Origin: an uncultured Bacteroidales bacterium
GTDB lineage: Bacteria; Bacteroidota; Bacteroidia; Bacteroidales; Bacteroidaceae
Reading direction: 5' to 3'
Assembly (NCBI GenBank): GCA_902781515.1
Contig: CACZJU010000020.1
Location: 1 to 35,915 of the forward strand
DNA length: 35,915 nucleotides
Shown: in pieces, positions 37-35,915 of the stretch
Layout: each line of letters begins with the position of its first letter
Numbering within the stretch: position 1 is the stretch's first letter
The notes under the pieces: model-generated
Databases searched by the model: none
The model's input: only the letters and a program-made list of their open reading frames with translations
Told to the model about the DNA's origin: nothing
Translations under genes and position numbers: made by a program

Positions 37-1248
37 ATGGAAAACAATCTACTCGTGAATGGGCAGACTATGGATTCGTCTGTTCAGGGAATGCTCGCAG
101 CAGAGCAGTTCCTAAGTGACAATTATCTGTTCCGTCGCAATGTGCTGAACGGAAAGATTGAGTTTACCAACAAGCCGGCCGAAGGGGAAACGGCTTCCAG
201 TTTCCGTCCGCTGACACAGGAGGCGCTGAACAGCATCATCCTCCGTGCTAAGCGAGAGGAAGTTGACGAAAATCCGAAGTCGGACATCGTGGAGTACGTC
301 AACTCGGAGGAGATTCCTACGCACAATCCCATCAGGGAGTTCCTCGAAGGACTGCCTGCTTGGGACGGGCACAACCACGTGGCTGACCTCTTCGGACGCC
401 TGCCGGGCATCAGCAGCGAACAACTGTCGTTCCTCAGTATCTGGCTCCGTTCGACTGTAGCTCACTGGCTGCAGATGGACACTCTTCATGGCAACGAGTG
501 TGTGCCTACGCTAATCGGCTCACAGGGTTGTGGAAAGACCACCTTCCTTCGTCGACTTCTGCCTAAGCACCTGCGTCAGTACTATCTCGACCATCTGAAT
601 CTCTCGAACAAGTTCGACAAGGATATGGCTCTGACGAACAACCTGCTTGTCAACCTCGACGAACTGGATGCTATCCGTCCCAGTCAGCACGCTGCCCTGA
701 AGCAGACGCTCTCGAAAAGCAAGGTGAACGGACGTCCCATCTTCGGAAAGGCTCAGGAGGACCGTCTGCGCTTCGCCTCCTTCGTGGCTACCACCAACAA
801 TCCCCATCCTCTGACTGATGCTACAGGCTCGCGTCGCTACATCTGTCTCCATATTCCACAAGGGCAGTATATTAATAATGTAGGGGACATTGATTACGAG
901 CAGCTTTACGCTCAGGTTCTCCACGAGGTTCGCGAGGAGAAGGCTCCCTACTGGTTCAACAACGATGAGGTGGCTCGAATTCAGCAACTCAACATCGAGT
1001 TCACCGAGAAGAAGGACATCGGGGAGATGGTGGCAGCCTGCTTCCGTAAGCCAAAGGAGGGAGAAGTGGCAAATGTGATGAACAGCCAGCAGATGCTGCA
1101 AATCATCAATTCGGAGTATCCAAGCCTGAAGGTTGACCATAGTGCGAAGATTCACCTGGCTCGCGCGATGAAGGAATTTGGTTACGAGCAAACAGAGAAG
1201 CACCATGTAATCCACTACAAGGTGGTTGTAGCCTTAAAGGCAGCATAG
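37..1248 (+). CDS. VapE-domain (virulence-associated E family) P-loop ATPase
   Basis: This 403-residue protein resembles the VapE/VirE family, primase-helicase-like ATPases common on mobile elements and in Bacteroidota chromosomes. Visible motifs are a Walker A loop GSQGCGKTT at residues 161-169, a Walker B-like strand ending NLDELD near 206-211, a sensor segment ATTNN at 251-255, and an arginine-finger-like GSRR at 264-267. The C-terminal 100 residues resemble the DUF3874 region found with VapE in Bacteroidales. The N-terminal primase-like part of larger VapE proteins is absent, so a partner could lie upstream, outside the window. The ATG at 37 has only 36 bases before it, so a longer frame cannot be ruled out. 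The 3' flank is full of GTGAGGTTT repeats. Family assignment is firm; cellular role is unknown. Confidence 0.85.
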   Translation: MENNLLVNGQTMDSSVQGMLAAEQFLSDNYLFRRNVLNGKIEFTNKPAEGETASSFRPLTQEALNSIILRAKREEVDENPKSDIVEYVNSEEIPTHNPIREFLEGLPAWDGHNHVADLFGRLPGISSEQLSFLSIWLRSTVAHWLQMDTLHGNECVPTLIGSQGCGKTTFLRRLLPKHLRQYYLDHLNLSNKFDKDMALTNNLLVNLDELDAIRPSQHAALKQTLSKSKVNGRPIFGKAQEDRLRFASFVATTNNPHPLTDATGSRRYICLHIPQGQYINNVGDIDYEQLYAQVLHEVREEKAPYWFNNDEVARIQQLNIEFTEKKDIGEMVAACFRKPKEGEVANVMNSQQMLQIINSEYPSLKVDHSAKIHLARAMKEFGYEQTEKHHVIHYKVVVALKAA

Positions 1249-1249
1249 A

Positions 1250-1342
1250 GTGAGGTTTGGGGGACTTTCGGGTGAGGTTTGAGAGCAAACCTCACCGCCT
1301 CCAAGCCTTTATTCATCGGGTCTGGGGGAGGTTGTGAGGTTT
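1250..1342. repeat. GTGAGGTTT repeat cluster with hairpin downstream of the VapE gene
   Basis: Three direct copies of GTGAGGTTT start at 1250, 1272 and 1334, and one inverted copy, AAACCTCAC, lies at 1287-1295. The second and inverted copies form a perfect 10-bp stem (1271-1280 with 1287-1296) around the 6-base loop GAGAGC. The word TATTCATCGGG at 1310-1320 recurs exactly at 35821-35831. There is no T-tract after the hairpin, so a simple terminator is not the obvious reading. Confidence 0.8.
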
Positions 1343-1412
1343 TTTCTAACCTAAGGCAATAAGTCCTAAATCTCGCGACGGGAAGCGATAGTAGGGCTTC
1401 GGGGGGTAGGGA

Positions 1413-34428: not shown

Positions 34429-35766
34429 ATGGATGTTAACAAAATCATGGCTCAACTGGAGGCTAAGCACCCTGGTGAGAAAGAATATCTGCAGGCAGTA
34501 CACGAGGTCCTGCTGAGTATTGAAGAAGTTTACAACCAGCACCCCGAATTTGAAAAGGCAAAACTCATAGAGCGACTGGTGGAGCCGGAACGCATTATCA
34601 CGTTCCGCGTGCCCTGGGTAGATGATAAGGGCGAAGTGCAGGTAAATCTGGGCTATCGCGTGCAGTTCAACAGCGCCATCGGTCCCTACAAGGGCGGTCT
34701 GCGTTTCCACGCTTCCGTTAACCTGAGCATCCTGAAGTTCCTCGGCTTCGAACAGACATTCAAAAACGCACTGACAACCCTGCCGATGGGCGGTGGAAAG
34801 GGCGGAAGCGACTTCTCGCCTCGTGGTAAGAGCGATGCAGAGGTGATGCGATTCTGTCAAGCCTTCATGAACGAACTCTATCGCTATATCGGACCGGAAA
34901 TCGATGTTCCTGCAGGCGACATCGGTGTGGGAGCTCGTGAAGTGGGTTACCTGTTCGGACAATACAAGAAACTGACACGCGACTGGAGCGGTGTCCTGAC
35001 GGGCAAGGGATTGGAGTTCGGAGGCTCGCTTGTTCGTCCAGAGGCAACAGGCTTCGGCGGACTGTACTTCGTCAACGAGATGCTGCAGACGCGAGGAATC
35101 GATATCAAGGGCAAGACGGTAGCCATCTCTGGCTTCGGAAATGTGGCTTGGGGCGCTGCCACAAAGGCAACACAACTGGGAGCTAAGGTCATCACCATAA
35201 GCGGTCCCGACGGCTACATCTACGACCCAGAAGGCATCAGCGGCGAGAAGATAGATTACATGCTCGAACTGCGTGCTTCAGGCAACGACATCTGTCAGCC
35301 CTATGCCGACGAGTTCCCAGGTTCCACCTTCGTGCCCGACAAACGGCCTTGGGAGGTGAAGTGCGACATCGCCCTGCCTTGTGCTACGCAGAACGAGTTG
35401 AACGGTGAGGACGCTCGCCAACTCATTGCCAATGGAGTGACCTGCGTAGGCGAAATCTCCAACATGGGATGTACGCCAGAAGCCATAGATGCCTTCATTG
35501 AGGCAGAGATGCTCTATGCACCAGGCAAGGCTGTGAATGCAGGCGGTGTAGCCACCAGCGGCCTCGAAATGAGTCAGAATGCCATGCATCTCTCGTGGAC
35601 GGCAGAAGAGGTTGACCAGAAACTCCACCAAATCATGCATGCCATCCACAAGCAATGCGTCACCTACGGCACTCAGCCCGACGGCTACATCAACTATGTT
35701 CGCGGTGCCAACGTTGCCGGCTTCATGAAGGTTGCCAAAGCTATGATGGCTCAGGGCATAGTTTGA
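34429..35766 (+). CDS. gdhA: Glutamate dehydrogenase (NADP-type, hexameric)
   Basis: GdhA makes glutamate from 2-oxoglutarate and ammonium, a main ammonium-assimilation route in Bacteroidales. The 445-residue protein has substrate-binding lysine segments NSAIGPYKGGLRFH near 81-94 and LPMGGGKGGSDFSPRGKS near 118-135 (Lys124). The nucleotide-binding Rossmann segment is ISGFGNVAWGAA near 235-246. Length fits the small hexameric class. NADP preference is inferred from close family resemblance and is not proven by the motifs I can read. It is 33 bases after the GH27 gene, but the functions are unrelated. Confidence 0.97.
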   Translation: MDVNKIMAQLEAKHPGEKEYLQAVHEVLLSIEEVYNQHPEFEKAKLIERLVEPERIITFRVPWVDDKGEVQVNLGYRVQFNSAIGPYKGGLRFHASVNLSILKFLGFEQTFKNALTTLPMGGGKGGSDFSPRGKSDAEVMRFCQAFMNELYRYIGPEIDVPAGDIGVGAREVGYLFGQYKKLTRDWSGVLTGKGLEFGGSLVRPEATGFGGLYFVNEMLQTRGIDIKGKTVAISGFGNVAWGAATKATQLGAKVITISGPDGYIYDPEGISGEKIDYMLELRASGNDICQPYADEFPGSTFVPDKRPWEVKCDIALPCATQNELNGEDARQLIANGVTCVGEISNMGCTPEAIDAFIEAEMLYAPGKAVNAGGVATSGLEMSQNAMHLSWTAEEVDQKLHQIMHAIHKQCVTYGTQPDGYINYVRGANVAGFMKVAKAMMAQGIV

Positions 35767-35915
35767 GCCTCCATTGGGAAGAAACAGGTAACTTACTACC
35801 TTAACAGGCGTTGAGCCCAGTATTCATCGGGCTTGGAATGGAGGTACCTGTGTCTGCAACAGGTACCTGACAGGTACCTCAAACCTCACACACCAAGTTA
35901 CCTGATAAGGTACCT
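35767..35915. repeat. AGGTACCT/GGTAAC repeat cluster at the right end of the window
   Basis: AGGTACCTGT (35842-35851) and ACAGGTACCT (35859-35868) form a perfect 10-bp stem around a 7-base loop. Further AGGTACCT copies lie at 35872-35879 and at the window end. CAGGTAAC near 35787 and GTTACCTG near 35897 are related. TATTCATCGGG at 35821-35831 and AAACCTCAC at 35881-35889 are exact words from the flank of the VapE gene (1310-1320 and 1287-1295). The cluster continues past the window end. Confidence 0.75.

Follow-up and report, generated by a model that had tools for sequence, protein, structure and literature searches.

We describe a family of small chromosomal elements in which a VapE-like helicase gene lies between two inverted arms of short repeats (iterons). 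The repeat cluster at the right end of the window, i.e. the whole 35,915-nt stretch of DNA that was analyzed, probably constitutes half of a small copy of such an element that lacks the gene. The reading that we favor, with a probability of roughly 0.6, is that this cluster is the left half of the copy, that VapE would be initiator-like and the arms origin-like, and that the family would have spread by over-replication. Four features can be read directly from the sequences: the common layout, the covariation of the repeat word with the C-terminus of VapE, pairs of VapE genes with a shared core, and the dispersed gene-less copies.

The window is the entire contig C20 of a 2.46-Mb assembly (46 contigs, 86% complete), and its right end is therefore an assembly break inside a multi-copy repeat element. 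The ends of C9, C10, C16, C17, C19, C20, C23 and C28 likewise break inside or adjoining VapE genes or VapE word clusters, and hence the elements are probably under-counted in draft genomes. An earlier note on this DNA had drawn attention to exact words and hairpins common to the two ends of the window, and all of these are present. TATTCATCGGG occurs at 1310-1320 and 35821-35831, and AAACCTCAC at 1287-1295 and 35881-35889, the latter pair being its only plus-strand sites in the window. The right-end hairpin is formed by AGGTACCTGT/ACAGGTACCT (35842-35851/35859-35868, 10 bp, 7-nt loop) and that of the VapE flank by GGTGAGGTTTG/CAAACCTCACC (1271-1281/1286-1296, 11 bp, 4-nt loop). Folded as single-stranded DNA against shuffles, the regions 35776-35915 and 1246-1350 give z-scores of -2.8 and -3.9, respectively, while no known RNA family was recovered in the window at gathering thresholds. 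With 16 exact copies of TATTCATCGGG in the genome, as against about 1.2 expected at equal base frequencies, and none of its reversed control pattern in the 2.46-Mb assembly, the recurrence of this word is not due to chance. Nor is it scattered randomly, the outcome which the same note had set against its own proposal: the copies are dispersed, yet 15 of the 16 sit in iteron clusters as read by eye, the exception being a copy on C12 (L008) without a cluster. The features of the window are collected in the table.

Table. Features of the window, with their positions, strands and the basis on which they were delineated
Feature	Position	Strand	Basis or remark
VapE-A, 403-aa VapE-like AAA+ helicase	37..1248	+	Pfam, AlphaFold2 model, Foldseek
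Right arm of the VapE-A element	1249..1345	+	Iterons GTGAGGTTTG at 1250 and 1272, inverted at 1286-1295; core 1310-1320; distal iteron 1334-1343
Host gene, presumably glutamate dehydrogenase-like	34429..35766	+	Open frame; stop 16 bp before the B element
Predicted gene-less element of word B (AGGTACCTGTT), first 133 bp	35783..35915	+	Contig ends inside; identity to the C16 and C9 copies; predicted full size ~226 bp, ends picked by eye
Core dyad AGCCC-AGTATTCATC-GGGCT, containing the conserved TATTCATCGGG	35814..35833	.	Window letters and folding
Inverted pair of B iterons (perfect 10-bp hairpin, 7-nt loop)	35842..35868	.	AGGTACCTGT/ACAGGTACCT
Further B iteron AGGTACCT	35872..35879	.	
Other B iterons	35908-35915; degenerate ones 35786-35793, 35896-35903		
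Inner stretch	35890..35915	+	Also in the gene-less C16 copy; absent from the VapE-B left arm on C19 (alignment)

The assembly encodes three VapE proteins, VapE-A (C20), VapE-B (C28) and VapE-C (C17), each with a cluster of its own word at the stop codon of the gene, namely GTGAGGTTTG for A, AGGTACCTGTT for B and TATGAGGTGTC for C. In relatives, a matching cluster is also found upstream of VapE in inverted orientation, which places the gene between two inverted arms. These relatives are drawn from rumen and gut Prevotella, Prevotellaceae and Bacteroidales, mostly as metagenome assemblies, the named ones including Prevotella communis E15-14 (complete chromosome), khp7 and tc2-28; in the genus of the window, 43 of 139 genomes encode a VapE relative (E<=1e-100). 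From 140 loci given, 135 were kept after dropping those with no hit or an identical CDS, and 111 of these have both flanks and a near-full gene: 78 close loci, whose VapE is at least 60% identical to that of the window, and 33 with lower identity. Inverted arms were recovered in 73/78 close loci at E<1e-3 and in 69/78 at E<1e-6, as against 70/234 and 37/234 control pairs, in which up- and downstream flanks of different loci were combined; since 70 swapped pairs pass the looser threshold, many words must be alike between elements. The five close loci failing the arm test are L075, L134, L177, L184 and L210, and in L177 the right arm comes after a DUF6078 gene. Below 60% identity, arms were detected in 5/33 loci, and on visual inspection several of these loci have their own words. 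The typical element is thus a VapE-like helicase of ~400 aa between inverted arms of 11-12-bp iterons, spanning ~1.7 kb end to end (median 1670 bp, range 1467-1931, 69 elements). In these 69 elements there is no ATG frame of at least 120 aa other than VapE between the arms; ten carry a frame of 60-119 aa in the 5' region, which in nine is antisense only (the exception being L159).

The iteron array lies directly downstream of the gene, starting at or near the VapE stop codon with a period of 11-12 bp (self-identity 0.47 and 0.40 at shifts of 11-12 bp versus 0.25-0.33 for the remaining shifts between 4 and 19). The last direct iteron pairs with an inverted one across ~10 nt, and is followed by a core dyad (CCC-TTTATTCATC-GGG, CCTTTGTACAAAGG or CCGATAACCATCGG) and then by distal iterons, often with a T-run; the core dyad of the window end occupies, by eye, the same place in the layout. 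Across 30 right arms (out of a selection of 32 among the 69 elements), changes on both sides that keep the pairing were seen at 9/9 predicted pairs of the foldback. Inverted sites for a pair of protein rings and a genuine hairpin in the DNA look alike at the sequence level.

The 69 elements share one layout while displaying 47 different commonest 9-mers, some of which are shifted readings of one word; joining 9-mers that share a 7-mer on either strand yields 13 groups, probably too few because such joining chains. Word similarity was set against sequence identity in three parts of VapE (N-terminal, core and C-terminal), each controlled for the other two. For the downstream arm the partial correlation was 0.44-0.46 with the C-terminal part, 0.04-0.06 with the N-terminal part and -0.01 to -0.03 with the core; for the upstream arm the respective values were 0.41, 0.10 and -0.03. 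Thinned to 47 sequences, the C-terminal correlation was 0.39 downstream and 0.33 upstream, that of the N-terminal part -0.02 and 0.05, and that of the core -0.06 and -0.02. The permutation p for the C-terminal part was the minimum reachable in every run, while the link to the N-terminal part was weak (p 0.043 in one run and 0.005 for the upstream arm; 0.64 and 0.13 in the thinned set). Physical linkage as the cause of the covariation is rejected because the upstream arm, which adjoins the N-terminus, also tracks the C-terminus. When the thinned set is scored in blocks of 20 residues, the correlation peaks at 381-400 (0.36), in the predicted wing (see below), followed by 361-380 (0.16). Thus, the proposal of the earlier note that the clusters belong to a diversifying family of cognate repeats is supported, along with the co-variation of repeat word and VapE that it had suggested looking for, and the word appears to change jointly with the putative DNA-reading end of the helicase.

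A related pattern emerges from 12 comparisons of VapE copies within the same genome, in which nucleotide identity was computed per 90 nt. The two P. communis copies are 90-99% identical over residues 1-300 and then fall to 84, 56, 44 and 39%. Likewise, VapE-A and the C17 VapE share 88-98% over the common core, followed by 74, 68 and 48%, and VapE-A and the C28 VapE 90-94%, followed by 69, 53 and 52%. The incomplete G063 pairs L116/L117 and L118/L119 show the same shared core with differing C-termini, and L139/L140 a mild form of it (90-100, then 83 and 83%). In several same-genome copies, therefore, the core is near-identical while both the C-terminus and the word differ. The pattern holds in about half of the comparisons and is not general: in the other six pairs (three from G091, one each from G059, G149 and G063) the core differs too, mostly with a further C-terminal fall, and L134/L133, whose right arms share a word, show no drop toward the C-terminus (86% over the final block). 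The shared-core pattern could arise through gene conversion of the core or through exchange of the C-terminus together with the arms.

In VapE-A, Pfam detects the VapE-like domain (E 2.1e-32) and DUF5906, with DUF3874 below cut-off, while no primase domain was recovered at E<=0.001. A sequence search of the PDB gave a single match, 7pds_A (E 2.2e-7). The AlphaFold2 model, built with 32 aligned relatives (pLDDT 79.8, pTM 0.71; residues 1-11, 190-194, 226-242, 262-265 and 401-403 of low confidence), retrieves with Foldseek as its top match PriRep1 with dsDNA (7pds; E 1.8e-14, TM 0.57), which we take to be a SaPI protein; the rmsd of 10.7 implies that the domains are placed differently in the two. 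Further matches were SaPI5, SaPIbov1 Rep, SCCmec Cch and D5-type helicases. Pfam, the PDB sequence match and Foldseek thus concur on an AAA+ core of the D5/VapE type. At its C-terminal end the model shows the order helix-strand-helix-helix-two strands, i.e. that of a winged helix, and we predict such a domain there. An alignment of 87 VapE proteins shows a conserved AAA+ core and variable sequence in residues 321-403 and in parts of the first 100. PADLOC anti-phage models matched neither VapE-A nor one DUF6078 protein (0 families at E<=0.01).

Gene-less copies with the words of resident VapEs are dispersed both in the genome of the window and in complete P. communis. The 141-bp window end has nine matches in its genome at E<=0.001, itself included, with identities of 99% to C16:84658-84798, 98% to C16:67-208 (minus strand) and 96% to C9:85976-86112; its identity to the VapE-B left arm on C19 is 77%. 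C16:84666-84891 is a full gene-less copy of word B (226 bp, with chosen ends) with no ATG ORF over 12 aa, and it resembles a deletion derivative in which the left arm is fused to the right arm. For word A, gene-less elements are found at C2:93117, C18:605, C11:75994, C4:94813 and C2:24163; these five are two-armed, 242-245 bp long and 82-90% identical to the fifth, which served as query, and their longest ATG frames are 29-62 aa. In P. communis, two-armed gene-less elements with the word of L163 lie at 1212206-1212661 and 3550275-3550795, and the same word recurs in two single right arms, the right arms being 80-86% identical, among 13 matches. The start of the P. communis record carries two single right arms (L281:517-622 and L281:3213-3318) whose left junctions are identical (TTGATTTCTTGATAAGTGAGAGG), suggestive of copying of the single arm on its own. 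A TAACAT-type word is present at C16 and C25, and no VapE with that word was found in the assembly.

The suggestion of the earlier note that a second VapE-type element may start just beyond position 35915 is not supported by these copies. The window end has the layout of a left arm, as it would if it belonged to a second complete VapE element; yet its inner stretch is shared with the gene-less C16 copy, to which it is 99% identical, and is missing from the VapE-B left arm. Moreover, the VapE-B and VapE-C left arms are accounted for elsewhere, on C19 and C23: the VapE-B left arm at the end of C19 runs into the same 5' region as the end of C23, which carries a C-word arm and reaches the start of a VapE. 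Judged by shared sequence and word, C19 would join C28 (VapE-B) and C23 would join C17 (VapE-C); no left arm was recovered for VapE-A. With the left arms elsewhere and the inner stretch matching a gene-less copy, it is unlikely that a VapE gene follows directly after the window, and a second complete element there is very improbable, the genome being 86% complete and thus leaving a little room for a fourth VapE.

No clear target-site duplication was seen in 30 elements, whose ends are uncertain (mean longest flank repeat 3.5 versus 3.1 in shuffled pairs). Matching P. communis flanks against 30 genomes in search of a strain-level empty site gave some match in 19/30, none of them informative (one upstream region, that of L243, was read). 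In the genome of the window many gene-less copies lie between the same palindromic modules, a common composite, and the moving unit may accordingly be larger. Joined palindromic modules have 80 matches, two of which span the joint: one on C5 (C5:119016-119162), with no word cluster (78%), and one on C9, with a remnant (75%). The C5 site is the sole empty-like site and is a paralogous repeat in the same genome. Dense arrays of other palindromic words (AAGACCTAGGTCTT, AGGTTAATATAACCT, AGATAATATTATCT and GGGATAGTATCCC) were noted in G000, and such arrays recur as composites around gene-less elements, e.g. at C2:24084-24507, C5:119016-119162 and L037:1040-1230. Insertion at tRNA genes was rejected, as no tRNA borders any of the 69 elements (the nearest, a tRNA-Pro, is 158 bp off, in L203), and so was a phage origin, viral contigs having yielded 24 loci, all remote (at most 32% identity).

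PICI and SaPI satellites are defined by an integrase and packaging-interference genes, and Cch and Cch2 of SCCmec form part of a large, recombinase-bearing cassette. REP/BIME sequences with RAYT transposases are dispersed palindromes whose cognate protein, an HUH nuclease, is encoded between copies; the VapE elements show the same arrangement, with the difference that their protein is an AAA+ helicase. They are closest to the replication module of SaPI/PICI (PriRep1, SaPI5, SaPIbov1 Rep) in having a D5/VapE-type AAA+ helicase, in its fold and in the iterons directly downstream. SaPI Rep uses its C-terminal domain to read iterons that directly follow the rep gene (PMC7581432); in the VapE elements, covariation points to this domain as the putative reader. 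They depart from SaPI/PICI in lacking a primase domain, in their size (~1.7 kb), in the second inverted iteron arm upstream, in the dispersal of gene-less copies on the chromosome, and in that neither integrase nor packaging genes were seen between the arms; L177 carries a DUF6078 gene in addition. Cch2 is described as binding direct repeats just downstream of its own gene, which is comparable to the VapE arms, and Cch is a weaker fold match; the VapE elements differ from that system in having no recombinase between the arms. As short gene-less inverted-repeat elements they recall MITEs and IS elements, including, in a Bacteroidales relative (Porphyromonas gingivalis), BrickBuilt (PMC4596501); they differ in that no transposase partner was found and that their inverted repeats are iterons covarying with a helicase. 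A search of open-access PMC papers, preprints excluded, yielded no title on elements of this kind.

Since the VapE proteins and their iterons fit the SaPI Rep scheme, we propose initiator-and-origin action, which by this analogy is the most likely function of VapE and its arms. A gene-bearing member runs from a left arm through a short 5' region and VapE to a right arm. The arms are inverted repeats, and in each of them direct iterons spaced by 11-12 bp are accompanied by a single inverted pair, a core dyad and distal iterons. VapE would be a self-loading helicase resembling SaPI Rep. Through its predicted C-terminal winged helix it would recognize the iteron word of the arms that flank it, and two hexamers loaded at the inverted pair would unwind the DNA in outward directions. 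VapE would thereby act as the initiator of a minimal replicon and each arm as an origin. If DNA that lies between cognate arms or adjoins them were over-replicated and then reinserted with the aid of host repair, gene-bearing and gene-less copies alike would spread. That VapE binds DNA, that the arms act as origins, that the elements replicate and how they move are all inferred, and the weakest step is their movement through re-replication and host repair. Because word and C-terminal domain diverge together, mutually blind systems could coexist in one cell. Tentatively, the elements may even represent a class of transposable element whose sole protein is an initiator helicase, without transposase, integrase or nuclease, moving by helicase-driven re-replication between inverted iteron origins, with joint change of word and C-terminal domain and with gene-less satellites for each word.

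The dispersal of the elements, their gene-less derivatives and the inverted repeats at their termini would also suit MITE/IS-like elements mobilized by an unseen transposase that acts in trans on common outer ends, with VapE as a passenger or a target-choosing helper; the similar outer flanks, with CCTGAAAA/TTTTTCAGG, of the A, B and D word clusters in the genome of the window (by eye) also fit this. We consider it unlikely: the frames between the arms leave no room for a transposase, clear target duplications did not emerge from the 30 elements with their uncertain ends, and a passenger VapE leaves unexplained why the C-terminal domain alone tracks the word in both arms. Less probable again is that VapE with its arms is an autoregulated gene, the gene-less clusters being a dispersed regulon or terminators bound by VapE or by its transcript and spreading slowly by recombination. 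The position of the right arm directly after the stop codon, the stable foldbacks of both window regions and the placement of the window copy 16 bp past a host gene speak for such a role, whereas near-identical gene-less copies at several places, the deletion-derivative-like fusion of arms in the B copy and the predicted AAA+ replicative-helicase fold speak against it. On the initiator-and-origin reading, the VapE family, whose name says only 'virulence-associated', is offered a concrete role as readers of a private, evolving DNA word. The 69 elements would constitute a natural library of protein/word pairs, with 13 to 47 words depending on strictness, from which a winged-helix recognition code might be derived, and they raise the question of whether an initiator helicase could by itself suffice to make DNA mobile.

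Several further observations concern the neighborhood and relatives of these elements. A DUF6078 gene (PF19555 in the two tested) is found near VapE in 31/96 close loci, in 30 of the 31 downstream on the same strand within ~280 bp; at L177:5213-5800 it lies between VapE and the right arm, amounting to a two-gene element. In G091, L134:1100-2930 (minus strand) has a left-arm word, AGGGTATATG, that differs from its right-arm word, ACGGGAGGTG, and words resembling these occur in L136 and L133 of the same genome. Longer VapE relatives (702-719 aa; L064, L067 and L071) are likewise flanked on both sides by inverted repeats (E 8e-12, 1e-4 and 2e-4), that of L071 being of low complexity. Finally, VapE relatives of 665-716 aa in different genomes (L065, L069 and L070) lie just upstream of what seems to be the same gene, presumably lpxD-like.
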